Below are positions 17,958 to 53,097 of a stretch of 64,000 nt of DNA, piece by piece (within the stretch, counting starts at the first letter, position 1; each line of letters starts with the position of its first letter). The DNA comes from Bacteroidetes bacterium MedPE-SWsnd-G2. GTDB lineage: Bacteria > Bacteroidota > Bacteroidia > Flavobacteriales > Flavobacteriaceae. Below the pieces are notes generated by a model, which saw nothing but the letters and a program-made list of their open reading frames with translations, was not told the DNA's origin and did no database searches. Location: contig MPDE01000006.1 of NCBI GenBank assembly GCA_001874335.1, positions 1 to 64,000 of the forward strand, written 5' to 3'. The position numbers and the translations under genes were made by a program.

Positions 17958-18667
17958 TCACGATGGATTAAAAATATCGCTGGTCTTTTGTGAAAGTCTT
18001 CTTTAGTGTTTTTCCAATCTTTAGCGGTTTGTGTCAAAATGTATTCTGTAGGTAGGGTTAAATCACAAGCTACACAAATACGAGTTTGAGGATGTAAAGA
18101 ATTGACCATATCTTCTAACAGTTTGTTATTTCTATACGGTGTTTCGATAAGAAGTTGAGTTTGATTATGTTCAAAGGATAATCGTTCTAAACGTTTTAAA
18201 GTCGTTTTTCGTTCGTGTTTGTCAATGGGGATGTAACCATTAAACGTGAAGCTTTGTCCGTTCATTCCAGATCCCATTAAAGCTAAAACAATAGAAGATG
18301 GTCCTACCAGGGGTATGACTTTAATTCTATCTTCATGAGCTAACTTTACGATATCAGAGCCTGGATCAGCAATCGCTGGGCATCCCGCTTCCGAAAGTAT
18401 ACCAACATTAAAACCAGCCTTACACGGTGCTAATAAATCAGGTAGCTCTTCTGGTAAGGTGTGTTTATTTAAAACACCTAATTTTAGTTTTGACTGGGGT
18501 TTGTTTGAACTTACTTTTTTTATGAATCGGCGTGCAGTTTTTTCGTTTTCAACTATATAATGATCTACCGATTCAATTATTTTTTTAATTGATATAGGCA
18601 AAACTTCTAAAGGTGGGTTATCTCCTAATCGCGTTGGTATTAAATATAGTTTACCGAATTCTTGCAT
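17954..18667 (-). CDS. Tetrapyrrole-methylase-family SAM-dependent methyltransferase (RsmI-like)
   Basis: 237 residues with the tetrapyrrole (corrin/porphyrin) methylase fold used by the 16S rRNA methyltransferase RsmI: LYLIPTRLGDNPP at the start, VGILSEAGCPAIADPGSDIV at residues ~87-106 (the RsmI SAM-binding loop) and VIPLVGPSSIVLALMGSGM. It differs from canonical RsmI (~280 residues with GNLEDIT near the start and a C-terminal HxH region). It is probably the shorter paralogue common in Bacteroidota, and its target, perhaps an rRNA nucleotide, is uncertain. It starts exactly where the sugar dehydrogenase gene ends. Confidence 0.82.
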   Translation of the reverse strand: MQEFGKLYLIPTRLGDNPPLEVLPISIKKIIESVDHYIVENEKTARRFIKKVSSNKPQSKLKLGVLNKHTLPEELPDLLAPCKAGFNVGILSEAGCPAIADPGSDIVKLAHEDRIKVIPLVGPSSIVLALMGSGMNGQSFTFNGYIPIDKHERKTTLKRLERLSFEHNQTQLLIETPYRNNKLLEDMVNSLHPQTRICVACDLTLPTEYILTQTAKDWKNTKEDFHKRPAIFLIHRD

Positions 18668-20085
18668 TACTTTTTAATAAATTTTTTCACCAGCTTCTGG
18701 CCGTTTTCCATGGTTAAGTGTACTAAATACAAACCAGATTCTAAGTGGCGGACTGAAATCTCTTGATTATTTTGAATATTGTTTTCAAGACTCATAATCA
18801 ATTTACCTTGAATGTCAAATAAATCAATAGATAGCGGAGTATTGAAGGCGTCAAAATTAAGGATAATATTTGTATTTGATGGATTAGGGCTGATTTTAAC
18901 TTGTGAAATTTCATCCTCCCCTAAACTTAAACTTGAATCAATAATCCTGAAAATATTTCCAGAAGTTAGTCCGCCTACAAATAGTTCTCCAGTATTACTT
19001 TCTCCAAAAGTAGACCAATTATTTCCTGAGAAAACACTACTGTATGTTATAGTGTAATCTCCGTTGTCTTCTGTTAAGTATCCTATTTCGTCACTACAAT
19101 AATCAGCAAAAAAGTATAAACCTTGTAGCGTGGGTTGATTTGACCCTCTATATACATAGCCTCCCGTAACCGAGCATTTAAATGGGCCATTTGCTGTATG
19201 GCTATAATCTACTACAGGAAAAGTAAGTGTAGAGCTATCAGGACAACCTGTATTGTTGTAGATTGTGTTTCCTTCATAACAACGCCATCCATAATTTAAA
19301 CCAGCTAAATCTGGTGCAACTTTATTTATTTCTTCATATACATTTTGACCAACATCTGCTACCCATAAATCGCCGGTAAGTTTATCAAAAGAGAATTTCC
19401 ACGGATTTCTTAATCCATAAGCCCAAATTTCTTCTAGCTCTGTTGTGCTTTCAAAAAACGGATTGTCAGCAGGAATACTGTAATTGGTTGCGCCATCAGT
19501 ATTGTCGACATCAATTCTTAATAGTTTACCGTGATAACTCAATAAGGATTGAGCTCTGTTACCAGGGTCTCCACCGCTTCCTCCATCGCCTGTCGCGATA
19601 TATAAATAGCCATCAGAACCAAAAGCTAAATCACCACCATTATGATTAATAAAAGGCTGGTCGATTGTGAGTAAAATTGATTCAGAAGTGGCATCTGCTA
19701 AATCATCATCGTCGGCATCCTTAGCAAATCGAGAGACAACAGTGTCATTACTATTATTGATATAATACACATAAAAATAACCATTAGTGGCGTAGTCAGG
19801 ATGAAATACCAAACCTAAAAGACCACGTTCGTCTCCAATTCCGGAAATTTGTGAAACAGAACTGTCAATGTCTAAAAATGCAGTGTCGTTTACAGATCCA
19901 TCACTATTCAAAATTTGAATATAGCCATCTTGTTCTACAACGAAAAGTCGATCATCTCCAGCGTTTTTAATGTTTACGGGTTTATCAAATCCAGTGGCAA
20001 ATGCTTCTATACCTATGGTTTGGGTAAATGCAATTCCATAAATAGAAAGAAAGAAGACAAGAAATAGGGGTTTTAAGTGGTTCAT
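18667..20085 (-). CDS. Secreted PQQ-dependent sugar dehydrogenase-like protein with T9SS sorting domain
   Basis: A 472-residue protein. Signal peptide ~1-22. Residues ~25-385 form a six-bladed propeller of the soluble glucose/sorbosone dehydrogenase family: DERGLLGLVFHPDY, NHNGGDLAFGSDGYLYIATGDGG, LRNPWKFSFDKLTGDLWVADVGQN and VTGGYVYRG. It may oxidise a sugar in the presence of PQQ and calcium, though no PQQ synthesis genes are visible. Residues ~400-472 are a type A T9SS sorting domain (ISPNPSNTNIILNF, ESGLYLVHLT, KLVKKFIKK), so the protein is exported and probably anchored at the surface. A hairpin ends at its start codon. Confidence 0.88.
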   Translation of the reverse strand: MNHLKPLFLVFFLSIYGIAFTQTIGIEAFATGFDKPVNIKNAGDDRLFVVEQDGYIQILNSDGSVNDTAFLDIDSSVSQISGIGDERGLLGLVFHPDYATNGYFYVYYINNSNDTVVSRFAKDADDDDLADATSESILLTIDQPFINHNGGDLAFGSDGYLYIATGDGGSGGDPGNRAQSLLSYHGKLLRIDVDNTDGATNYSIPADNPFFESTTELEEIWAYGLRNPWKFSFDKLTGDLWVADVGQNVYEEINKVAPDLAGLNYGWRCYEGNTIYNNTGCPDSSTLTFPVVDYSHTANGPFKCSVTGGYVYRGSNQPTLQGLYFFADYCSDEIGYLTEDNGDYTITYSSVFSGNNWSTFGESNTGELFVGGLTSGNIFRIIDSSLSLGEDEISQVKISPNPSNTNIILNFDAFNTPLSIDLFDIQGKLIMSLENNIQNNQEISVRHLESGLYLVHLTMENGQKLVKKFIKK

Positions 20086-40116: not shown

Positions 40117-40932
40117 ATGTCATATAATCTTTTAAAAGGTAAAAAGGGAATTATTTTTGGAGCATTAGATGCAAATTCTATTGCTTGGAAAACGGCTGAA
40201 CGTGTTCACGAAGAAGGAGGAGAATTTGTTTTAACAAATGCTCCAATAGCTATGAGAATGGGTCAAATTAATGAATTAGCTGAGAAAACGGGTTCTCAAA
40301 TTATTCCTGCAGATGCTACTTCAATTGAAGATCTTGAAGCGCTTGTAAGCAAGTCTATGGAAATTCTTGGTGGTAAAATTGATTTTGTATTGCATTCTAT
40401 AGGGATGTCTGTAAATGTTAGAAAAGGTCGTGCTTATACAGATCAAAAATACGATTGGACTCAAAAAGGGACCGATGTTTCTGCTATGTCATTTCATAAG
40501 GTTATGCAAACGCTTTATAAAGCAGATGCAATGAATGAGTGGGGAAGTATTGTAGCCTTGTCTTATATGGCTGCTCAAAGAGTGTTTCCAGATTACAATG
40601 ATATGGCTGATAATAAAGCGTATTTAGAAAGTATTGCAAGAAGTTTTGGTTATTTCTTTGGTAAAGATAAAAACGTTAGAGTAAATACAATTTCACAATC
40701 TCCAACGCCAACTACAGCTGGACAAGGAGTAAAAGGTTTTGATGGTTTTATAGCGTATGCAGATAAAATGTCGCCTTTAGGAAATGCTACTGCATTAGAT
40801 TGTGCAAATTATACGGTTACCCTATTTAGTGACCTTACTAAACGAGTTACACTTCAGAATTTATACAATGACGGAGGCTTTAGTAATGTAGGTGTTAGTA
40901 ATGAAGTTATGGAAACTTTTATGAAAGAATAA
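40117..40932 (+). CDS. fabI: Enoyl-[acyl-carrier-protein] reductase (NADH) FabI
   Basis: Last reduction in each cycle of type II fatty acid elongation; target of triclosan-type inhibitors. 271 residues, short-chain dehydrogenase fold. The cofactor segment GKKGIIFGALDANSIAWK is at 8-25, and the catalytic Tyr160-x6-Lys167 pair lies in DYNDMADNK. LHSIGMS and RVNTISQSPTPTTAG are also typical (family: RVN-x-I-S-x-G-P). The Gly before Pro is replaced by Ser, as is common in Bacteroidota FabI. Confidence 0.95.
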   Translation: MSYNLLKGKKGIIFGALDANSIAWKTAERVHEEGGEFVLTNAPIAMRMGQINELAEKTGSQIIPADATSIEDLEALVSKSMEILGGKIDFVLHSIGMSVNVRKGRAYTDQKYDWTQKGTDVSAMSFHKVMQTLYKADAMNEWGSIVALSYMAAQRVFPDYNDMADNKAYLESIARSFGYFFGKDKNVRVNTISQSPTPTTAGQGVKGFDGFIAYADKMSPLGNATALDCANYTVTLFSDLTKRVTLQNLYNDGGFSNVGVSNEVMETFMKE

Positions 40933-40959
40933 CGCATAAATAATGTTAAATTAATAATG

Positions 40960-40983
40960 AGCCGCTATAAGCGGCTTTTTTTT
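40960..40983 (+). terminator. Terminator downstream of fabI
   Basis: Stem AGCCGCT (40960-40966) / AGCGGCT (40970-40976), 3-nt loop, followed by a T8 tract. It lies 27 bases after the fabI stop. The ~190 bases from here to the next ATG (41175) hold only upstream sequence of the first T9SS cargo gene. Confidence 0.92.
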
Positions 40984-41174: not shown

Positions 41175-43985
41175 ATGAAAAAAATTACCTTTATTTTGTT
41201 CTGTTTAACCATGATGTTTTCCTTAGAGGGCTACGCTCAATTTGATTGCTCTTCAGGGGTAGTTTTAACAGATGGTTATACAGCTTCAAACATTTTAACC
41301 AACGGAGACGGTGGTATTGAAGATTGGAATGATCCAAACCCAACCGACAGTTGTAGTGAAAATGGGTTTTACTGGGATGACGATGTGTATTTATTTACTT
41401 ATACAGCAGGAGCGTCTCCCGAACAAATTTCAATGACTACGTTTACACGTAATTCATGGAATGGATTGGCTATTTTCTCTTCATGCTCAGGAACTGCATT
41501 GGATAACTGTTTAAATGCTGATGTTAATACCTCCGGAAATGTAAGTCATACTGTAACTGCAAACATAGAAGCAGGTCAAACCGTATATATCGCTACTGGT
41601 CAATGGGGGACGCCAAATGGTTTAGACTTTGATGTTACAAGTTTTTCTGTAACAACTTTAGATAGTGAGCCAGATTGCGCTGCTAACGCTTTAGCTGATA
41701 CAAATCCTGCTTGCGGAAATTATGATGTACCTTTTTCTTGGGATGCAAGTCCTGGTGCAGATGGATATTACTTAACTGTTGGTACAACCAGTGGTGGTAA
41801 TGATATAGAAGATGCTACAGATTTAGGTAGTGATACTTCTTACACATTGCTTGCTCCAACTTTAAATACAGATTATTATTGGACAGTTGTTCCTTATAAT
41901 GTAGTAGGATCAGCAATGGGATGTTCAGAAAATATGTTTACGACTTCTACAGATGGTTGTTACTGTGAATCTGATACAACTTTGGTTGATGGTACAGGAA
42001 TTTCAAACTTACAAGTAGGCACTACAGATTTTGCAAGTGGTGGTAGTTTAGGTTATGAAGACTTTACAGGAGCAGCAGTTGATTTAGGTGCGGGTATTTC
42101 TAGTAATGTGCAGATTACATTTAATACAGGATATTCGTATGGAGTAAATATTTGGATTGACCTTAATGATAATTTCGATTTTGAGCCAGAAGAATTAATG
42201 TTTACTGGAGAAGAAACGACTGGTGATGAACCTGTTGTTTTTGATGCTTCATTCATTATGCCAGTTGATGCTCCATTAGGAAACCATAGAATGAGAATTG
42301 GTAGTGATGATACTCCTGAAGATTCAGCAGATCCTTGTAATGAATCATCATGGCATGTAACAATGGATGTAGATGTAAATATTATTGAAGTAGCTTGTTC
42401 TCCTGCTACAGCAACAGCAACCTTAGCTGCAGATTGTGATAATTCTCAGTTTTTTGTAGATGTAGATGTAACAGATTTAGGAGATGCTACCGAGGTTACT
42501 GATGGTACAGATACCTGGGCAGTTTCAGGAACAGGAGTCCTTCAAGTTGGACCTTTTGCAGATGGAAGTTCTGTAGATTTAACTTTAACACATACAGATG
42601 CTGAATGTGATTTGGCTTTAGGAACATTTAGTAATACGTGTCCTATTCTTGGGCAAATTTGCGAAACAGCAATTGAAGTAATGTCTGTGCCTTATATGAC
42701 AAGTGATGACACTGCTAACTATTTAGATGATTATGAAAATGGAAGTAGTTCTTGTAGTGCGTTTTATATGAGTGGTGATGATGTTGTGTATTCTTATACG
42801 CCAGCATCAGATATTGTTGTAGATATTTTATTAAGTAATATTGGGGCTACTTATTCAGGAATACACGTTTTAGATGGATGTCCAGATGCTACACCTAATT
42901 GTGTGGCTTTTGAAGGATCAAGTTCAACTAATGATAGAGATTTACAAGATGTGGCATTAACAGGGGGTACAACCTACTATATTGTTATTTCTACTTGGGC
43001 TACTCCACAAAGTACGACTTACGATTTAACTATTACAGAAAACACTTGTACCGATGCTACAGCTGCTTATTCTGTTGAAAGTGACTGCGATAATAGTGGT
43101 GGGTTCTTTGTAAATGTAGAAATTACAGATATGGGAACTGCAACAGATTTAACTGTATCAAATGACCAAGACGCTACAACATATGCTGTCACAAGCTTGT
43201 CAACAGTACAATTTGGTCCTTATGCCAACGGAACAGATGTTGTTGTTACAATTTCTGATGATAATGATGTGAATTGTGTTCAAGATAGTGAAGCATTATC
43301 TCAAGTGGCTTGTCCACCAGCTAATAACGATTGTATTAATGCCATCGCCTTAACTAACGGGTTAACGTTTGACGAGAATCCTTTAATTGCAACTAACTTA
43401 GGTGCAACAGATTCTGGAGAAACAGCACCAGGATGTGCTTTTTACCAAGGAGGTGATGTTTGGTATTCTGCAATTATTCCTGCGGATGGATACTTAAATT
43501 TTGAGGTAAACACAGATGATAGTAGTATTACAGATTCAGGTGGAGCAGTTTATACTGGTTCTTGTGGATCGTTAGTGCTTTTAGATTGTAATGATGATGG
43601 TTCTACAAATGGAGCACACCCAATTATAACTGTTGATGATGTGTCTTTAGCAGGTCAAATGGTTTATTTTAGAGTTTGGGAATATGGTAATAACGCGGTA
43701 GGAACAGTGCAAGTAGCAACTTGGAGTCCTACATTAAGTTTAGGAGAGGATAACTTAAGTGCATTTACTTATTTCCCAAATCCAGTGACTTCTCAATTAA
43801 CCTTAAAAGGGCAGTCTAATTTGAATAAAGTCTCAATTTATAATGTGGTTGGACAAGAAGTTTTAACTATGGAGCCAAATAATGTTGAAGCAGTAATGGA
43901 CTTGTCAAGTCTTACTTCTGGAGCTTATTTTGTGAAAGTTGAAATTAACAATCAAATTGAAACAATAAGAGTGATTAAACAGTAA
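41175..43985 (+). CDS. T9SS cargo protein with FN3-like, GEVED and PPC-like modules (936 aa)
   Basis: A large secreted protein. Signal peptide 1-21 (ends GYAQ). Then, in order: PPC-like beta-sandwich ~23-155; FN3-like repeat ~165-250 (LTVGTTSGGNDIEDA); GEVED domain ~265-395 (IWIDLNDNFDFEPEELMFTG, GNHRMRIGSDD); Cys-bounded module ~400-490; PPC-like ~493-620; second Cys-bounded module ~622-712; PPC-like ~716-850; and a type A sorting domain ~855-936 (YFPNPVTSQLTL, SGAYFVKVEINN, IRVIKQ). Very rich in Asp, Thr and Asn. It should be exported through the type IX system and held at the surface or released. Likely adhesive; no catalytic motif was seen. It stands alone between terminators. Confidence 0.88.
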   Translation: MKKITFILFCLTMMFSLEGYAQFDCSSGVVLTDGYTASNILTNGDGGIEDWNDPNPTDSCSENGFYWDDDVYLFTYTAGASPEQISMTTFTRNSWNGLAIFSSCSGTALDNCLNADVNTSGNVSHTVTANIEAGQTVYIATGQWGTPNGLDFDVTSFSVTTLDSEPDCAANALADTNPACGNYDVPFSWDASPGADGYYLTVGTTSGGNDIEDATDLGSDTSYTLLAPTLNTDYYWTVVPYNVVGSAMGCSENMFTTSTDGCYCESDTTLVDGTGISNLQVGTTDFASGGSLGYEDFTGAAVDLGAGISSNVQITFNTGYSYGVNIWIDLNDNFDFEPEELMFTGEETTGDEPVVFDASFIMPVDAPLGNHRMRIGSDDTPEDSADPCNESSWHVTMDVDVNIIEVACSPATATATLAADCDNSQFFVDVDVTDLGDATEVTDGTDTWAVSGTGVLQVGPFADGSSVDLTLTHTDAECDLALGTFSNTCPILGQICETAIEVMSVPYMTSDDTANYLDDYENGSSSCSAFYMSGDDVVYSYTPASDIVVDILLSNIGATYSGIHVLDGCPDATPNCVAFEGSSSTNDRDLQDVALTGGTTYYIVISTWATPQSTTYDLTITENTCTDATAAYSVESDCDNSGGFFVNVEITDMGTATDLTVSNDQDATTYAVTSLSTVQFGPYANGTDVVVTISDDNDVNCVQDSEALSQVACPPANNDCINAIALTNGLTFDENPLIATNLGATDSGETAPGCAFYQGGDVWYSAIIPADGYLNFEVNTDDSSITDSGGAVYTGSCGSLVLLDCNDDGSTNGAHPIITVDDVSLAGQMVYFRVWEYGNNAVGTVQVATWSPTLSLGEDNLSAFTYFPNPVTSQLTLKGQSNLNKVSIYNVVGQEVLTMEPNNVEAVMDLSSLTSGAYFVKVEINNQIETIRVIKQ

Positions 43986-44014
43986 TAAATTAATTATTAA
44001 TTACTTTAAAGTAA

Positions 44015-44047
44015 AATAGCCTTGAGAAATCAAGGCTATTTTTTTGT
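44015..44047 (+). terminator. Terminator downstream of the 936-aa T9SS gene
   Basis: Perfect 11-bp stem AATAGCCTTGA (44015-44025) / TCAAGGCTATT (44030-44040) with a GAAA tetraloop and a T tract to 44045. Confidence 0.95.
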
Positions 44048-44583
44048 TTTAGAACGAAGAGTATTACAAGTCTAACCGTGTGTTTAGTCGGTTTTTATTG
44101 TATTTCATCTATGTATTATGTTGTTCAAATTCTACCCTTATTTTGTTTTTGATATTTAATTAGTCCAAAAATCATGAATTTATCGAACTACTGTTACAAA
44201 ATGGAAGAAAACAAGGACAACATTTAGTTAGTGTTAAACCCTTGGTTATTTGAGGAATATGTTGCTTATAGCCCTAAATTATTACGGTATTTGCAATGAA
44301 ATTGGTTTTAATTTCGAGTCTTGGTTGAAGTTGTTGTAAAATATTGTGAAATCGATGTTTTATGCCTGCATAATAAAAAATCATAATATTTATATAAATA
44401 GCTGGTTAATAGGTGATTGAGGCTTGTGGTTGTGAATTGGTAAATTTTAACATGAATTTTCTTTATGTAATTCAGCGTTTAAATAAGTATTTCGTCGATT
44501 ATGAAAATATTTAGGCTTTTGTATTAACATAATATTAATACATTGTAGACTTAACAAATTATTAACTAACTTAAACTTATTAC
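44048..44583 (+). other. Long (536 bp) non-coding upstream region of the 1337-aa T9SS gene
   Basis: No gene is visible. The region is AT-rich. Around 44078-44110 it contains a stretch similar to one at 41076-41108 upstream of the first T9SS gene (GTGTGTTT, then TCG-TTTTT, then CATCT). Near the start codon are runs such as TATTAACATAATATTAATACA and a -7-like TACATTG. A long leader or several regulator sites are plausible for a highly expressed surface protein. Confidence 0.5.
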
Positions 44584-47500
44584 ATGAAGAAAATTACTTT
44601 ATGGTTAGCGATGCTTATGGTATCGTTTTCGTTTTCTCAGATTGGTGTAGGTAATGGAACTAGTACAACTGGTAACGTGCCTATTTATAGTTGTTATGGA
44701 TATACGTATTCACAACAAATATATTACCAAAACGAAATCAATTCGTCAGGAGATATTACTTCAATTTCTTTTCATCTACAAGATGAAGCATTTACAAATG
44801 ATCAAAGTACAGATTGGACAATATTTTTAGGGCATACCTCTAAAACAGAGTTTGCTGACAATGATGATTGGGAAGATTTTGCAAATTTAACACAGGTTTA
44901 TTCGGGTACTATTACATATCCAGAAGAAGGCGCTTGGTTAGAAATTGTTTTTGACACTCCGTTTTCTTATAATAATATAGACAACTTAATTGTTGCTGTA
45001 GATGAAAATGAAGCTGGATATGATTGTACAAATTACTGGTACGCTCACGATAGTGGTGCTACAAGAAGTATGTATTACAGAAATGATACTACAAATCCAG
45101 ATCCAGCAACGCCTCCAACGGCTTGGGGAAATCAAACATTAATTAACAATGTTATTTTTGGGGGGATTATTCCTGCGTTTCCACCTAACTGTGATAATGC
45201 ATTAGTTTCGCCTATGAATGGTGATACTGGTTCTCCAGTTGATGGTCTAATTACTTGGTCTGCAGCTACTGGTTCTCCTGCTGGTTATAGAGTTACTGTT
45301 GGAACGACTTCTGGTGGAAATGATATTGCTGATAATGTTGATGCTGGTAATGAAACATCTTACCAATTACCAATGTTATCTGCTTCAACTATGTACTATG
45401 TAAACATTACTGCATACAATGATATGGGTGATGCTACAGGTTGTACAGAAGAGAGCTTTACAACTGTTGAGTTGCCAACTTGTGCAACTAATTTAGTAGC
45501 TACCCCTAATCCTGATTGCGGTAATTTTGATGCCTCTTTAGTTTGGGATGCAGCGACATTACAAGATGGATACACTTTAACTATTGGTACGACTTCTGGT
45601 GGTAATGATGTTGTCGATGCTATGGATTTAGGAGATGTAACAAATTATACATTTTCACCAAGTCCTGATACAACATATTACTGGTCTGTAACGGCTTATA
45701 ATTCTGTTGGTGATGCTACAGCTTGTGAAGAAGGAATGTTCTCAACTGTTGAGACAGGATGCTATTGTGATTCAGTACCGGTAAATAACGATGGTCAAGG
45801 AATCGGAGCATTCACTATTGGTACAACTGATTTTGTGAGTTTTGGAGATGAAACTTATGAAGATCATACAGCTACAGTTGTTGATTTAGGACAAGGGATT
45901 TTCTCAAACATTCAAATTACTTTTGAAACAGGATATACTTACGGAACTAACATCTGGATTGATTTTAATGACAATTACAACTTCGAGGAAAGTGAATTAT
46001 TATACCAAGGAGAATCATTAAGTCCAAACCCTACGACATTAAACGCAAGTTTCGTTATGCCTGCTGATGCGACATTAGGAAATCACAGAATGCGTATTGG
46101 TACAGCTGATACTGGTCAAGCTACTCCAAATCCATGTTATGAAGGATATTATGGTGTAACAATTGATGCAACTGTAAATATTATTTCTGTTGATTGTACT
46201 CCAGCTACATTAGAAACTACTGTAGTTCCTGATTGTGATAATGATCAATATACAATTGATGTTAATATTATTGATGCTGGTGATGCTACTGAAATTACTG
46301 ATGGAACAAATACTTGGCCTGTTACTGGTGCTGGTGTTATTACTTTAGGTCCACTTCCAAGTGGAACAGCTATCGATTTAACGGTTACGCATTCAGATGC
46401 AACGTGTGATTTACCTCTAGGTAACTTTAGCTACTATTGTCCTCCACCAAATGATGAGTGTAATGCAGCTACTTTAGTTCCTGTAAATGAAGATTTAGAT
46501 TGCGCTGAGACTGTAACTGGATGGGTTACTGCAGCTTCAGATTCTGAAATCGGTGATTGTTGGGGTACTTCTGATGATGACGTATGGTTCTATTTTATTC
46601 CTGAAGCTACGACTCATGTTGTAGATTTTACAAATGTTTCGGGAGATGATTGGACATATATGGTAATATATCCTGCTTTACCAGGTGGATGTGAAGATTT
46701 AGCTGATAACGTTTACTGTGGTAGTGGATACGGACCACAAGTAATAGATGAATTAGTTGTTGGTGAGCCTTATTTAATTCAAATTTATTCAGGGTCTTCT
46801 TCACCTCAAGACACTGTATTTACGTTATGTGTAGGTACTTTACCTTCAGCTCCAGACAATGACGAGTGTGCAAATGCTGAAGTATTAACGGTTAATGCTG
46901 ATATGGAATGTGGGGTAACTACTCCTGGAACCGTAGCGTCTGCTACTAACTCTGGTGTTGATACTTGTGGCGGTACTGAAGATGATGATGTTTGGTATTC
47001 GTTTACAGCAACAAATGATAGACATGTTATTTCTTTAGAAAACGTAAACGGATGGGTATATAAAGTATTATATGATGCATCTGCTGGTTGTCAAATATTT
47101 ACAGATAATTTATTATGTTCTACTGCTGATTCTGATTTAGTTACCGGATTAGTACCAGGAAACGAGTATTTCTTACAAGTTTATTCTGGAACAAGTGATC
47201 CTGAAACGTTCTCATTTGATGTATGTGTAGGTACACCTCCTGATGCGCCTGCAAATGATGACTGTTCTGGTGCGATTGAGTTCGTGTTAAATGAAGGTGT
47301 TTGTGATCCTAATGTCACATTAGATTTTACTTGGGCAACTTCTACTGATGATGAATTAACATCTTGTGATGATTGGAATAACTTTGGTTTATGGTATACT
47401 ATTACAGCTCCAGCTTCTGGAATTGTATTATATGAGCCTTCTACAGATTCCCCTTGGTTACCAAGTGTTGTTGTTTATGAAGGTGACGATTGTGGTGCTT

Positions 47501-48597
47501 TAACTGAGGTTGCGGGAAGTTGTTTATCTAACCCTGGTTCTATTGAAGGATTAACTCCTGGCGAAACGTATTACGTAATGATATTCGTTGAGTCTTATGA
47601 AACAGAGGATGTTATAGATTTATGTTTATACTATATTAACTGTACTCCTGCTGATGCTACTGCTACTGTAGTAGATGATTGTGCTAATAGTGGTGGATTC
47701 TATATTGATGTAGAAATTGCTGATATGGGAACAGCTGGAAGTTTAACAATTTCTAATGATTTTGATGCTACTACATTTGCTGTGACTGAAGCTTCAACTG
47801 TGCAATTCGGACCATTTGATAATGGTACTGTTGTTGAAATTACTGTAGGTAATGATGATAATGCAGACTGTACTGAGATTTTCTCAAATGTAACGCAATC
47901 TGTTTGTCCTCCATTAAATGATAATCCTTCGGGAGCTATTATGTTAACTGTAGATGCAGGTTTCTGTGACGGTGTTAATACAAATGGTGATAATACAGGT
48001 GCAACAGATTCTTACGTTGGTGATGTTTCTGGGTCTTGTTTTAATGGTACAGATGATAATGATGTTTGGTTTACATTCGTAGCACCAGATGATATATTCT
48101 CTGTAGATGTTTCAACTGATTTTGCTGGAGCAACAAATACTGATACTGAAATTGCAGTGTATTCAGGAACTCCTGGATCATTTGTAGAAATAGGATGTGA
48201 TCAAGATGGTGGAAGTACTATAAATTACAACTCTGTAATTACAAATCTTGAAGTTACAGCTGGAGAAACTTATTATGTACAAGTTTCTGCATGGACACCA
48301 AGTACTATTGGTACATTCTGTTTAGAAGTTTCTACTAACACTATGTTAAGTATAGAAGATGAGCAATTAAATAAATTTAGCTACTATCCAAACCCAGTTA
48401 CAAATACATTAAACATTAATGCATTAAGTGTAATTGAAAACGTTAGTATCTTCAACTTATTAGGTCAAGAAGTAATTACTGCTCAACCTAATAATTTAGA
48501 AGCTCAATTAGATATGTCTGGATTACAATCTGGAGCATATTTTGTAAAAGTTACTGTGGATAATGCAGTTAAGACTGTTAAGATTATTAAAGAGTAA
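44584..48597 (+). CDS. Giant T9SS cargo protein with repeated FN3, GEVED and PPC-like modules (1337 aa)
   Basis: The largest protein here. Signal peptide 1-19 (ends FSFSQ). An N-terminal domain ~20-200 is rich in aromatic residues (IYSCYGYTYSQQIYYQNEI). Two FN3-like repeats follow (~203-295 and ~300-395, each with VGTTSGGND or IGTTSGGND), a GEVED domain (~397-535), a Cys-bounded module (~536-620), three PPC-like domains (~622-757, ~757-888, ~889-1018, with DDDVWF/Y motifs), a second Cys-bounded module (~1020-1110), one more PPC-like domain and a type A sorting domain (~1256-1337, YYPNPVTNTLNI, VKIIKE). A paralogue of the preceding gene. Probably a long surface fibre or adhesin; no enzyme motif was found. 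Confidence 0.87.
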   Translation: MKKITLWLAMLMVSFSFSQIGVGNGTSTTGNVPIYSCYGYTYSQQIYYQNEINSSGDITSISFHLQDEAFTNDQSTDWTIFLGHTSKTEFADNDDWEDFANLTQVYSGTITYPEEGAWLEIVFDTPFSYNNIDNLIVAVDENEAGYDCTNYWYAHDSGATRSMYYRNDTTNPDPATPPTAWGNQTLINNVIFGGIIPAFPPNCDNALVSPMNGDTGSPVDGLITWSAATGSPAGYRVTVGTTSGGNDIADNVDAGNETSYQLPMLSASTMYYVNITAYNDMGDATGCTEESFTTVELPTCATNLVATPNPDCGNFDASLVWDAATLQDGYTLTIGTTSGGNDVVDAMDLGDVTNYTFSPSPDTTYYWSVTAYNSVGDATACEEGMFSTVETGCYCDSVPVNNDGQGIGAFTIGTTDFVSFGDETYEDHTATVVDLGQGIFSNIQITFETGYTYGTNIWIDFNDNYNFEESELLYQGESLSPNPTTLNASFVMPADATLGNHRMRIGTADTGQATPNPCYEGYYGVTIDATVNIISVDCTPATLETTVVPDCDNDQYTIDVNIIDAGDATEITDGTNTWPVTGAGVITLGPLPSGTAIDLTVTHSDATCDLPLGNFSYYCPPPNDECNAATLVPVNEDLDCAETVTGWVTAASDSEIGDCWGTSDDDVWFYFIPEATTHVVDFTNVSGDDWTYMVIYPALPGGCEDLADNVYCGSGYGPQVIDELVVGEPYLIQIYSGSSSPQDTVFTLCVGTLPSAPDNDECANAEVLTVNADMECGVTTPGTVASATNSGVDTCGGTEDDDVWYSFTATNDRHVISLENVNGWVYKVLYDASAGCQIFTDNLLCSTADSDLVTGLVPGNEYFLQVYSGTSDPETFSFDVCVGTPPDAPANDDCSGAIEFVLNEGVCDPNVTLDFTWATSTDDELTSCDDWNNFGLWYTITAPASGIVLYEPSTDSPWLPSVVVYEGDDCGALTEVAGSCLSNPGSIEGLTPGETYYVMIFVESYETEDVIDLCLYYINCTPADATATVVDDCANSGGFYIDVEIADMGTAGSLTISNDFDATTFAVTEASTVQFGPFDNGTVVEITVGNDDNADCTEIFSNVTQSVCPPLNDNPSGAIMLTVDAGFCDGVNTNGDNTGATDSYVGDVSGSCFNGTDDNDVWFTFVAPDDIFSVDVSTDFAGATNTDTEIAVYSGTPGSFVEIGCDQDGGSTINYNSVITNLEVTAGETYYVQVSAWTPSTIGTFCLEVSTNTMLSIEDEQLNKFSYYPNPVTNTLNINALSVIENVSIFNLLGQEVITAQPNNLEAQLDMSGLQSGAYFVKVTVDNAVKTVKIIKE

Positions 48598-48620
48598 TTT
48601 TAATAATAGTTGATTTGAAA

Positions 48621-48649
48621 GGGCCTTACTTTGTAAGGCTCTTTTTTTT
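48621..48649 (+). terminator. Terminator downstream of the 1337-aa T9SS gene
   Basis: Stem GGGCCTTAC (48621-48629) / GTAAGGCTC (48633-48641) with one G-T pair, a TTT loop and a T8 tract. Confidence 0.93.
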
Positions 48650-48756
48650 GCTTGTTTTTGAAGTAATTGGTTAAGATTATAGAATAATTATTATGTTAAT
48701 GTCTTGTTAATTTGATAGTAAATAGGTAATATTAATAATCAATAATTAGTCGATTT

Positions 48757-50475
48757 ATGTTAAAACAATACATTTTATTTATTTTCACTTGGTTACTTGT
48801 AGTTAAGGGCTTTTCACAAGCTCAATTTCAAATTGTTACATCTAGTGTAGGTCTGGAATATAGTTGCGGTAATACGTATTTAGGGAGTGGAGTTAGTTTT
48901 GTAGATTTTAACTCCGATGGGTGGGATGATATTTCCCTAGCAACAGATGAAAACTCTACACCTTTATTTTTTCAAAATAATAATGGCGTTTTTGAGCCTA
49001 TCGATTTAGGTTTACCAATTTCCTCATATCAAAATAAGCAGTTAACCTGGGTTGATTTTGATAATGATGGTGATAAGGATTTATTTATTACAAGTAACAC
49101 AGATGGTAATATTTTATTCCAGAATAATGGAGAATTGAGTTTTATAGATGTAACCGAAGAATCGGGATTAGAAACAGAAAATATCTCAACTAATGGCGTG
49201 TCTTGGGGAGATGTTAATAATGATGGTTATTTGGATTTGTTCATGAGCAATAGAGGAGAAATAGCTACGGTTCAGAATCATCTGTACCTTAATAATGGTG
49301 ACGGTACTTTTTCTAATAATACAGAAGAATCAAATATTATGGACGTAGCCGAGGCGAGTTTTTGTTCAGTAATGTTTGATTTTAATAATGATGGTTGGTT
49401 AGATATTTTTGTGGCAAACGATAAGCCTTTGTACCCAAATAGATTGTATAAAAATGATGGAGATGGTACTTTTACTGAAGTTGGTGAGTCATCTGGTGCA
49501 GGAATAATTATGGATGCCATGACAGCAACTGTAGATGATTATAACAACGACTCCTATATGGATATTTATATTACAAATACGCAATCTGGTAATATTTTAT
49601 TAGAAAATAATGGAGATGAAACATTTACTGATGTCACGAGCTTATCTGGTACCGATTTCAATAGTCTTGGTTGGGGAGCTGTATTTTTTGATGCAGAAAA
49701 TGACACCGATTTAGATCTGTATGTAAGTAGTATGTTTGATGGTTCTGTATACAATTATTTGTCATCGGCCTTATATATTAATAATGGAGATGAAACATTC
49801 GATATTTGTGAAGAGGCAGATAATGATAATGATACATCAGAAAGTTATGCCAATGCCATCGGAGATTTTAATAATGATGGTTTAATAGATTTTGTGGTTA
49901 CTAATAATACGGACGATATTTTTCTTTTTTATAATAATTCAATGAACCCAGGTAATTGGCTAAAACTGAATTTTGAAGGTGTAGAAAGTAATAGAGACGG
50001 AATAGGAACCCTTATTGAACTAGGGATTGATGAAAACGCACAATATAGGATGGTAAGATGTGGTGAAGGCTATTTGGCGCAAAATTCTCTTACACAGCAT
50101 TTTGGAGTGGGCGACGCAACAGAAATTGATTATTTGAAAATTTCTTGGCCTAGTGGACAAGTAGATTGGTATTATGATATTGAAGTCAATCAATCACTTA
50201 GTTTTTTAGAAGGACAAGGCGAACTTTCTATAGAAGATAAAACATTTAATACTGTAAAAATGTATCCTACTATTACAAGTAATTTGCTAAATTTTAGTGC
50301 CATTACACCTATAAAAAGTTTAGTGATTTATGATGGATTGGGGCAAAAAATTAACAGTATAAAAGGTGATAGTTCGACGTCATCGATAGATGTAAGTGCG
50401 TTGTCAACAGGTCTTTACACTATTGTGGTTGTAACAACTGAGGCTAAGGAAATTTTGAAGTTTGTTAAAAGGTAA
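48757..50475 (+). CDS. T9SS-exported FG-GAP/ASPIC (CRTAC1-like) repeat protein
   Basis: A 572-residue protein with a signal peptide (~1-20, ends GFSQ). It has seven FG-GAP/VCBS repeats recognisable by their calcium-binding loops: DFNSDGWDDI, DFDNDGDKDLF, DVNNDGYLDLF, DFNNDGWLDIF, DYNNDSYMDIY, DAENDTDLDLY and DFNNDGLIDFV, spaced about 45-60 residues. This predicts a seven-bladed beta-propeller. An ASPIC/UnbV domain follows (~415-485, RCGEGYLAQNSLTQHFGVG, WPSGQVDW), then a T9SS sorting domain (~500-572, diverged: MYPTITSNLLNF, STGLYTIVVV). Surface protein with a probable binding role. Unlike its neighbours it lacks the Cys-bounded module. Confidence 0.9.
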   Translation: MLKQYILFIFTWLLVVKGFSQAQFQIVTSSVGLEYSCGNTYLGSGVSFVDFNSDGWDDISLATDENSTPLFFQNNNGVFEPIDLGLPISSYQNKQLTWVDFDNDGDKDLFITSNTDGNILFQNNGELSFIDVTEESGLETENISTNGVSWGDVNNDGYLDLFMSNRGEIATVQNHLYLNNGDGTFSNNTEESNIMDVAEASFCSVMFDFNNDGWLDIFVANDKPLYPNRLYKNDGDGTFTEVGESSGAGIIMDAMTATVDDYNNDSYMDIYITNTQSGNILLENNGDETFTDVTSLSGTDFNSLGWGAVFFDAENDTDLDLYVSSMFDGSVYNYLSSALYINNGDETFDICEEADNDNDTSESYANAIGDFNNDGLIDFVVTNNTDDIFLFYNNSMNPGNWLKLNFEGVESNRDGIGTLIELGIDENAQYRMVRCGEGYLAQNSLTQHFGVGDATEIDYLKISWPSGQVDWYYDIEVNQSLSFLEGQGELSIEDKTFNTVKMYPTITSNLLNFSAITPIKSLVIYDGLGQKINSIKGDSSTSSIDVSALSTGLYTIVVVTTEAKEILKFVKR

Positions 50476-50501
50476 TTCCGTTTATCAGATTTTTTTTATG
50501 C

Positions 50502-50516
50502 TTTAACGATTAAAGT
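50502..50516 (+). promoter_or_regulatory. Palindromic element TTTAACGATTAAAGT upstream of a T9SS gene
   Basis: CTTTAA-CGA-TTAAAG (50501-50515) is an interrupted palindrome, 70-84 bases before the ATG at 50585. The 15-mer TTTAACGATTAAAGT occurs again at 31046-31060 in the promoter of a membrane protein gene. Possible regulator site; chance remains possible in AT-rich DNA. Confidence 0.35.
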
Positions 50517-50584
50517 ATTAGTAATCATTCAATTATGTTTTTTACATATATATTTATACTTAATAGAACCCAAAATTGAAGATT

Positions 50585-51976
50585 ATGAAAAAAATTACTT
50601 TTTTATTTTTTGCATTATTATTGTTAGCCTACGCTCCTCAGTTGTCGGCGCAATGTAATTACTCCATAGTCCTTACCGATACTTTTGGTGATGGATGGAA
50701 TGGCGTTTCCAACGTCGATGTGTTTGTAGGAGGTGTTGAAGTTGTTTCTGATGCCAGTATTCCTTACGATGTTTCAAACAATTCATATGTGTCAGATCCA
50801 ATCTATTTTGAGGTTGGAGAAGGCGAGGTTATAACAGTTGTGTTTAATCCTTTAGCAACCAATTTATTTGGTGATGGTTATAATGAATGTAGATATACAG
50901 TTAGAGACCCGTTAGGTGCAGTGGTGTTTAATGCAGATCCTTTTGATGGTAATGCTGCTCCATTAGATTTAGAAGTTGCCGATAATGTAACAGGTGCTTG
51001 CCCTTCATGTGCTGTACCATTAGCAGATTTTTCAATTCAAACAGACTGTCCAACTTCAACAAACTTTTTTGTTTTAGTTGACTTAACTTATATAGGTGGT
51101 GCTTCAGGAATGGATATTTCTGATGATCAAGCAAATTCAATTAATGTTTCTGCTATTGGGCAATACCTTATGGGACCATACAGTTACGGTACAGATGTGA
51201 TTGTTACTATTGAAGATGACTCAGATAATAGTTGTTCTTTGGTGAGTGCTACATTAACTTCTGATGTTTCTATTTGTCCGCCATCTAATGATGATTTTGA
51301 AGATGCCGAAGCCATTGCATGTGATGATACAGTTACGGGCTCAACTGACAATGCAAACTTAGATGAAGATGGCGCTCCAGATGGCGTATCATTTAGTGAG
51401 GAGCAAGGAGATGCACCAGATTTAGATGCACCAAATGTGTGGTATGCTTATACTTCAACAGGAGGTAGTGATGAAGATATTACATTAGATTTATGTTCGT
51501 CAGAATATGATTCAACGGTTTTAGTATATACAGGTACAAGTGGAAACTTAAGTCTTGTTTGGGCTAATGATGATAACTATGTAGAATGTGGAGGTGGAGT
51601 CTATTCTTCATACGGAACCTTTACTGCAGATGGCTCATCAACCTATTATATTTGTATTACAGGTTGGGGTGTTAGTGATACAGGAAATTATGAAATGTAT
51701 TTAGAATGCTCAAGTTCTACACTTTCAGTAAATGCTTCTGAGTTTGAATCTGATTTAAACTATTATCCAAACCCAGTTGATAATGTTCTTAATTTAAATG
51801 CTAAATCAGAAATCGAAAATATTTCAGTATTTAACATAATGGGACAACAGGTTATGAATATGGTGCCTAAGAGCTTAGATAAAGTTATAGATATGTCTAA
51901 CTTAACTACAGGAACTTATTTTGTGAAAGTTACTGTTAGAGGGTTAACAGAAACAATCAGAATTATTAAAAAATAA
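50585..51976 (+). CDS. T9SS cargo protein with calcium-loop, Cys-bounded and PPC-like modules (463 aa)
   Basis: Start set at the ATG at 50585 (MKKITFLFFALLLL); an in-frame TTG three codons earlier is less likely. Signal peptide ~1-23 (ends QLSAQ). Residues ~24-140 begin CNYSIVLTDTFGDGWNG, a start known from many T9SS cargo proteins. The Cys-bounded module follows (~143-235), then a PPC-like domain (~237-375, SNDDFEDAEAIACDDTVTGS, APNVWYAYTS) and a type A sorting domain (~390-463, YYPNPVDNVLNL, TGTYFVKVTV, IRIIKK). Third member of the modular paralogue set in this cluster, last before the strand continues to a glycosyltransferase. No enzyme motif. Confidence 0.87.
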   Translation: MKKITFLFFALLLLAYAPQLSAQCNYSIVLTDTFGDGWNGVSNVDVFVGGVEVVSDASIPYDVSNNSYVSDPIYFEVGEGEVITVVFNPLATNLFGDGYNECRYTVRDPLGAVVFNADPFDGNAAPLDLEVADNVTGACPSCAVPLADFSIQTDCPTSTNFFVLVDLTYIGGASGMDISDDQANSINVSAIGQYLMGPYSYGTDVIVTIEDDSDNSCSLVSATLTSDVSICPPSNDDFEDAEAIACDDTVTGSTDNANLDEDGAPDGVSFSEEQGDAPDLDAPNVWYAYTSTGGSDEDITLDLCSSEYDSTVLVYTGTSGNLSLVWANDDNYVECGGGVYSSYGTFTADGSSTYYICITGWGVSDTGNYEMYLECSSSTLSVNASEFESDLNYYPNPVDNVLNLNAKSEIENISVFNIMGQQVMNMVPKSLDKVIDMSNLTTGTYFVKVTVRGLTETIRIIKK

Positions 51977-51995
51977 TTAAACTAATATAAAAAGG

Positions 51996-52023
51996 AAGGT
52001 CTCAGAAGTGAGGCCTTTTTTTT
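51996..52023 (+). terminator. Terminator downstream of the last T9SS cargo gene
   Basis: Stem AAGGTCTCA (51996-52004) / TGAGGCCTT (52009-52017) with one T-G pair and a GAAG loop, followed by a T8 tract. Confidence 0.93.
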
Positions 52024-52089: not shown

Positions 52090-53097
52090 ATGGCTAATAT
52101 TGAATATTCTTTTATTGTACCTGTTTTTAACAGGCCTAAAGAAATTGAAGAACTATTGTTGAGTTTTACCAAGTTTGAATCTAACATTCCTTTTGAGATT
52201 GTAATTGTAGAAGATGGTTCTAATATTACTTCTAAATCTATTGTGAAGGCATTTAACTCTCAATTACATATTAGTTATTTTTTTAAACCTAATTCTGGAC
52301 CTGGAGATTCTCGAAATTATGGAATGCAGAAGGCAGAAGGGAATTACTTTATAATTCTGGATTCAGACGTGATAATGCCTCCAAATTACTTGGAGGAAGT
52401 AAATGCGTATTTGTCACGTAATTATGTAGATTGTTTTGGTGGGCCTGACGCGGCTCATGCTTCATTTACAAATTTGCAAAAGGCTATTAACTTTGCCATG
52501 ACATCATTTATAACAACGGGAGGAATAAGAGGAGGAAATCCTAAGGATAAGAGCTTTCAGCCCAGAAGTTTTAATATGGGGCTTTCAAAAGATGCTTTTA
52601 TAAAAACAGGAGGTTTCGGAAGAATTCATCCAGGAGAAGACCCCGATTTATCAATACGATTAGTAAACTTAGGGTTTAAAACAACCTTAATATCCAAAGC
52701 ATTTGTATACCATAAAAGACGAATTTCGTGGTCTAAATTTTATATTCAAGTAAATAAATTTGGGATGGTACGGCCAATTTTAAATAATTGGCATCCTGAG
52801 ACTCAAAAAATAACTTATTGGTTTCCAAGTGTGTTCGTGATGGGATTTGCTATTGCCTTACTGCTAAAGATATTAGGCTATGACTTTGGTTTACTATTGT
52901 ATTCTGTTTATTTTGGTGTAGCATTTTTATTAGCTTTAATACAATCTAAAAATTTAATTGTTGCCTTTATGGCATTGCCAGCTATTTGTATACAGTTTTT
53001 AGGTTATGGTATAGGGTTCTTAAAATCTAACTGGCAAATTAACGTATTGAAAAAGAATCCGGAAAAGAGTTTTCCACAGCTGTTTTTTAAAGTATGA
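52090..53097 (+). CDS. Glycosyltransferase family 2 with C-terminal membrane helices
   Basis: A 335-residue inverting glycosyltransferase of the GT-A fold. Visible: EYSFIVPVFNRPKEIEELL (5-23), the nucleotide-binding EDGS (41-44), the metal-binding DSD (91-93, FIILDSDVIMPP), and the acceptor/base segment GGFGRIHPGEDPDLSIRL (~192-209) with ED. Two or three C-terminal hydrophobic helices (~245-320) anchor it at the inner membrane. It would add a sugar to a lipid or polysaccharide; donor and acceptor are unknown. Overlaps the next gene by ATGA and begins a three-gene unit with the YbbR-like and coaE genes. Confidence 0.9.
   Translation: MANIEYSFIVPVFNRPKEIEELLLSFTKFESNIPFEIVIVEDGSNITSKSIVKAFNSQLHISYFFKPNSGPGDSRNYGMQKAEGNYFIILDSDVIMPPNYLEEVNAYLSRNYVDCFGGPDAAHASFTNLQKAINFAMTSFITTGGIRGGNPKDKSFQPRSFNMGLSKDAFIKTGGFGRIHPGEDPDLSIRLVNLGFKTTLISKAFVYHKRRISWSKFYIQVNKFGMVRPILNNWHPETQKITYWFPSVFVMGFAIALLLKILGYDFGLLLYSVYFGVAFLLALIQSKNLIVAFMALPAICIQFLGYGIGFLKSNWQINVLKKNPEKSFPQLFFKV

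Follow-up and report, generated by a model that had tools for sequence, protein, structure and literature searches.

A fabI-glycosyltransferase interval of Flavobacteriaceae holding predicted type IX secretion cargo genes with constant ends and variable bodies

The first 64,000 nucleotides of contig MPDE01000006.1 (the window) of the flavobacterium MedPE-SWsnd-G2 carry four consecutive genes between fabI, encoding enoyl-ACP reductase, and a glycosyltransferase gene (Table 1). A preliminary description of this DNA had identified four genes of these lengths as cargo of the type IX secretion system (T9SS), each with a type A sorting domain. The genes and their lengths were confirmed on the + strand, and the cargo reading was right. 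In a profile search, all four C-terminal sorting domains (CTDs) exceed the TIGR04183 cut-off of 23 bits, although that of gene 3 is marginal in Pfam (PF18962, 25.1 bits against a cut-off of 27). All four N-termini have a charged start and a hydrophobic stretch and, judged by eye only, resemble signal peptides. In both features, the type A CTD and the signal-peptide-like N-terminus, the four proteins resemble known PorV-dependent type A cargo (TIGR04183/PF18962). One report describes recognition of type A CTDs by the PorV shuttle (PMC12618676), and another describes attachment of type A cargo to anionic lipopolysaccharide (A-LPS) in Porphyromonas gingivalis (PMC8545088). The translocon protein SprA, the only T9SS component searched for, is encoded in the window's genome (TIGR04189, 2782 bits).

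Table 1. Positions in the window of the four cargo genes, their sorting domains, the hairpins and the bordering genes
Feature	Positions	Strand	Details
fabI (enoyl-ACP reductase), conserved left border of slot	40117-40932	+	matched in 79/80 relatives, up to 96% identity
Terminator hairpin after fabI	40959-40977	+	-13.6 kcal/mol, z -3.6
Gene 1, 936 aa mosaic T9SS type A cargo	41175-43985	+	GBD-FN3-GEVED-CysIg-GBD-CysIg-GBD-CTD
Sorting domain (CTD), gene 1	43749-43982	+	TIGR04183 51.5 bits; 51% identity with gene 2 CTD
Terminator hairpin after gene 1	44013-44042	+	-17 kcal/mol, z -4.8
Gene 2, 1337 aa mosaic T9SS type A cargo	44584-48597	+	N-FN3-FN3-GEVED-CysIg-GBD-GBD-GBD-CysIg-GBD-CTD
Sorting domain (CTD), gene 2, slot-specific subtype	48361-48594	+	TIGR04183 57.2 bits
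Terminator hairpin after gene 2	48617-48645	+	-16.6 kcal/mol, z -5.1
Gene 3, 572 aa FG-GAP/UnbV (CRTAC1-like) T9SS type A cargo	48757-50475	+	without mosaic modules
Sorting domain (CTD), gene 3, divergent	50263-50472	+	TIGR04183 27.1 bits
Gene 4, 463 aa T9SS type A cargo	50585-51976	+	N-CysIg-GBD-CTD
Sorting domain (CTD), gene 4	51740-51973	+	TIGR04183 51.1 bits; 54% identity with gene 2 CTD
Terminator hairpin after gene 4	51990-52023	+	-18.1 kcal/mol, z -3.8
Glycosyltransferase, conserved right border	52090-53097	+	followed by ybbR-like, coaE and histidine kinase/response regulator genes

The module layouts of genes 1, 2 and 4 were determined with profile models made from the window's own modules. 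Three of the genes had been described as sharing FN3-like, GEVED, Cys-bounded and PPC-like modules in different order and number, and this description stands in part. A shared module corresponding to the PPC-like one exists, but its best Pfam match is GBD_T9SS_assoc (GBD in Table 1); the Cys-bounded module is labelled CysIg. FN3 and GEVED are present in genes 1 and 2 only, gene 4 having neither. Residues 288-712 of gene 2 align with gene 1 at 49% identity, residues 989-1337 with gene 1 at 43% and residues 1020-1336 with gene 4 at 32%, and each of these alignments is colinear; modules within the window therefore differ in number, as described, but not in order. Genes 1, 2 and 4 differ only in module copy number and in the N-terminal module, which is unique to each of genes 2 and 4. 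The length of gene 4 is counted from an ATG and would be 466 aa if an upstream TTG is the start; its predicted structure is of low confidence (predicted local distance difference test score [pLDDT], 62). No tandem repeats were found in the DNA.

Gene 3 bears no relation to the shared modules in profile comparison. It encodes six FG-GAP stretches followed by UnbV_ASPIC (PF13517, 143 bits; PF07593, 64 bits). The best match in the PDB to its AlphaFold2 model (pLDDT, 86.7) is murine CRTAC1 (9etn; Foldseek E value, 1.6e-29; template modeling score, 0.70; 20% identity). Gene 3 thus shares the domains of the CRTAC1 family, an FG-GAP propeller with ASPIC/UnbV, and in its model the fold; it differs in adding a T9SS sorting domain, and the likeness observed is one of domains and fold.

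The four genes occupy an old chromosomal position, between fabI and the glycosyltransferase gene, which many marine flavobacteria share and which, where filled, mostly contains genes for predicted T9SS surface cargo. In most relatives within the family the two border genes are adjacent, ~70-250 bp apart, while elsewhere 1-10 kb or more lies between them. We surveyed this interval, hereafter the slot, in the 70 loci that span it, drawn from the window and 80 named loci of relatives close in fabI, and scored a slot as empty if it lacked an open reading frame (ORF) of at least 110 aa. T9SS cargo occupies 32 of the slots and 35 are empty. Cargo makes up 59 of the 70 slot ORFs, all of it co-directional with no antisense cargo, and was found at 0 of 693 junctions in the ten neighbouring backbone intervals. 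The model used for classification had been seeded from slot proteins, and the assignments were therefore rechecked with TIGR04183, which is independent of that model and matched 73 of 73 slot cargo. A second sample with one genome per genus, partly overlapping the first and with three genomes (G008, G015 and G027) scored from contig edges, gave cargo in the slot in 14 of 49 genera, an empty slot in 23 and other content in 3. On a 75-genome tree of five backbone proteins, occupancy changes 7 times, at least 6 of these changes being forced by well-supported branches, compared with ~24 changes for shuffled labels. These few changes indicate that the slot is old and has been passed on chiefly by descent, having been lost or gained several times.

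The variation in content between fixed flanks might also be expected of an integration hot spot, at which cargo would arrive by chance on inserting mobile elements or islands. A few slots do hold other genes: in Xanthomarina (L105 11547-17474) a transporter and an acyl-CoA synthetase-like gene, and in G048 (L021 1058-4796) electron transfer flavoprotein (ETF) and acyl-CoA dehydrogenase-like genes, all assigned by sequence only. Nevertheless, the predominance of cargo in a single direction, the tracking of phylogeny by occupancy and a slot GC content (34.8%) near that of the window (33.1%) make such a hot spot very improbable. No integrase was recognized among the slot ORFs, with no dedicated recombinase scan made in the relatives.

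Cargo as such is common, because TIGR04183 has 49 matches in the 3.03-Mb genome of the window and 45 and 62 in two relatives, including several adjacent pairs. The four genes could accordingly be an ordinary tandem cluster of the kind found throughout flavobacterial genomes, at a position that is not special. We consider this quite unlikely, given that at least 14 genera use the fabI-glycosyltransferase interval while its ten neighbours are never used, and given the relationships of the sorting domains. When the gene 2 CTD was searched against 49 relatives and its own genome, the 11 top matches, and 14 of the top 17, were slot genes (from G029, G005, G028, G008, G015, G027 and the window). The gene 2 CTD is thus closer to slot CTDs of other genera than to non-slot CTDs of its own genome. 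The 5' ends are distinctive as well: of 44 mosaic slot genes, 37 begin with an MKKIT-type sequence (position 2 being K, R or Q), compared with 2 of 24 non-slot cargo, the latter all from the window's genome and most of them picked by similarity to a slot CTD.

In several pairs of sister species, the two ends of a slot gene (5' leader and 3' sorting domain) retain 72-89% DNA identity, while the body between them is wholly or partly replaced or rearranged. The last slot gene of the Winogradskyella pair L072/L078 is 86% identical over 64 nt around the start codon and, at the 3' end, 89% identical over a stretch of 273 nt that takes in the sorting domain and 29 nt beyond it, with no colinear match across the 2.3 kb between these ends; RecN of this pair is 93% identical. 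In L098/L102, a 5' stretch of 138 nt is 83% identical and a 3' stretch of 313 nt is 80% identical, and the body matches are short and non-colinear (525 with 1344, 1279 with 2044, 2161 with 2131 and 2892 with 2043). L045/L054 and L104/L108 show a similar pattern of ends and bodies, and in L077/L091 and L048/L058 the body is replaced in part only. Across these five pairs, that is, without L072/L078, CTDs are 79-85% identical in protein sequence and identical residues amount to 23-46% of the longer body, with RecN at 75-83%. As expected, the slot gene of a very close pair (L055/L062) is conserved throughout. Module number and order in the slot mosaic proteins therefore differ between species, and relatives show non-colinear rearrangement and body replacement rather than one identical arrangement. 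Module gain and loss, which the preliminary description had proposed, is borne out, taking the form within the window of number changes in a fixed order.

The FG-GAP genes of the slot are split the opposite way. Compared with their nearest relatives, their bodies are 52-87% identical and their sorting domains 21-43% identical; for the slot pairs of L072/L078 the values are 79-88% and 29-41%. In both of these orthologue pairs, DNA identity is mostly 70-93% up to nt ~1440 and ~43-60% thereafter. As a control, we used 14 orthologue pairs of non-slot cargo from these two genomes (body identity, >60%); they average 88% in the body and 79% in the CTD. A CTD identity below 45% occurs in 1 of these 14 and in both slot FG-GAP pairs, for which a simple count gives a probability of 3/120 = 0.025, and the control is therefore suggestive but not conclusive. 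Stronger evidence for CTD exchange than this count comes from cases in which a donor is visible. In L073, an FG-GAP gene and an unrelated neighbour share CTD DNA at 89% identity with an exact run of 41 nt; in L093, another such pair shares it at 82% with an exact run of 50 nt. The longest exact CTD run among 600 between-genome pairs is 29 nt at most. Whole-genome DNA searches with the shared CTDs of L073 and L093 returned the slot copies and, elsewhere, one 60-nt match only. Three neighbours in L016 share ends at 81-94%. The boundaries of these exchanges, like the slot, its cargo content and the division between ends and bodies, are read directly from the aligned sequences. Exchange was seen in particular genomes only, and the proposal that slot neighbours always share CTDs was rejected, since mean CTD identity within loci is barely above that between loci.

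Two further observations concern FG-GAP genes. The slot of Winogradskyella sp. KYW1333 (L073 10832-19719) contains three or more consecutive, complete FG-GAP cargo genes that look like a tandem expansion, and one antisense cargo gene lies directly past fabI at this locus. The window's genome encodes a second FG-GAP T9SS cargo protein (C16:83965-85422, L142), 46% identical to gene 3, ~33 kb beyond and outside the slot.

Constant ends and dissimilar bodies could also arise without recombination, if bodies change rapidly through point mutations and small indels, with selection on them either weak or positive, and ends are kept for secretion. CTDs and signal peptides are functionally constrained, and gene lengths are similar in some sister pairs (526 aa in L048 and 520 aa in L058), both of which would fit. 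Simple divergence does not readily produce the non-colinear body matches of L098/L102 or the sharp break in DNA identity at the body-CTD junction of the L072/L078 FG-GAP genes. Nor would it be expected to give unrelated bodies CTD DNA at 82-89% identity, with exact runs well beyond those of between-genome pairs. The conservation of FG-GAP bodies alongside changed CTDs is likewise unexpected if the CTD is merely constrained. Fast divergence alone is therefore an unlikely explanation.

We regard it as probable that the slot is an old locus, fixed in position, of cell-surface T9SS cargo whose diversity arises from recombination between the constant ends. Mosaic slot genes would keep a short 5' leader carrying the MKKIT signal-peptide start, together with a type A sorting domain specific to the position, while their bodies would be remodelled through changes in copy number, rearrangement of modules and outright replacement. 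Resident FG-GAP/UnbV genes would instead retain their bodies and exchange sorting domains. The process is most likely homologous recombination or gene conversion among neighbouring or related cargo genes, with homology supplied by the conserved leader, the sorting domain and shared internal modules. Recombination as the process, and surface display with ligand binding or adhesion as the function, are what we infer from these patterns.

Several points weigh against this interpretation. The modules of the window's own genes are colinear, and the nearest relative of the window's genome has only 72% backbone identity; body replacement is therefore seen in relatives and not in these four genes. Donors are visible in L073 and L093, and probably in L067 and L034, but not in L072/L078: a search among the 74 cargo of both genomes found none for the FG-GAP CTDs, the best match being 41-43%. 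The divergence of FG-GAP CTDs could thus partly reflect fast evolution. Some loci come from metagenome-assembled genomes, L072 among them, whereas L045, L054, L091, L102, L104 and L108 bear strain names. Finally, two non-slot pairs of the same Winogradskyella genomes, L170/L178 and L200/L182, have CTDs at 93% and 89% identity and bodies at 38% and 55%. The process is therefore not unique to the slot, and replacement may reach wider.

Both types of cargo would be exported by Sec, cross the outer membrane via the T9SS and be anchored on the surface, in line with what is established for type A cargo, and there the binding-type bodies would probably contact varying ligands. Adhesion, biofilm formation and competition are the candidate roles that the preliminary description had named. 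In profile searches, slot cargo bodies match fn3, GEVED, galactose-binding-like, MAM, P-domain and cleaved-adhesin families, and these binding-type matches favour binding or adhesion as the function of slot cargo. No enzyme accounts for the whole locus, although a few single slot proteins look enzyme-like, with matches such as arylsulfotransferase. A more far-reaching proposal is that marine Flavobacteriaceae keep the slot as a locus dedicated to surface variation, with constant leaders and CTDs serving as recombination anchors for repeated swaps of bodies or CTDs, perhaps inside one population and over short periods; this we offer only tentatively.

The gingipains and HagA of P. gingivalis are T9SS surface proteins that have been described as varying through domain rearrangement and allelic exchange (PMC5266723); they too join modular adhesin domains, differing in number and combination, to a conserved CTD. 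In that system, exchange affects adhesin modules of a few named genes in one species, whereas the fabI-glycosyltransferase slot is common to many genera, contains other domain families and has CTDs that are themselves exchanged between unrelated bodies. The slot cargo also resemble polymorphic toxins of Bacteroidetes (PMC7073777), in which an unvarying export part is joined to functional parts that vary. They differ in having two constant ends around a variable middle, with binding-type modules in place of toxin tips, and no toxin or immunity genes were recognized at the slot. In the open literature, to which our search was limited, we found no description of a conserved slot of T9SS type A cargo with constant ends and replaced bodies. 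A family-wide fixed slot with two constant ends, and with sorting domains moving between unrelated bodies, therefore appears to be new.

Flavobacteria encode dozens of T9SS cargo proteins whose roles are mostly unknown. Since the slot can be located by its flanks in any genome, it offers a system for studying surface-protein diversification in marine Bacteroidota and the ligands bound, and the ease of extracting the locus from existing genomes makes the idea testable on strain collections. Our findings also suggest that a sorting domain can pass from one cargo gene to an unrelated one, and CTD phylogenies should therefore not be read as gene phylogenies.

Each of the four genes had been described as set apart by its own terminator. 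Strong hairpins do follow genes 1, 2 and 4 (Table 1), but no comparable hairpin was found downstream of gene 3. An Rfam search of the region for structured RNA gave no match, including in the gap between genes 1 and 2 (43986-44583), which at 598 bp is unusually long for the cluster and has a GC content of 25.8%. Apart from the four-gene cluster, the window contains a fifth T9SS type A cargo gene, encoding 472 aa, at 18667-20085 on the - strand.

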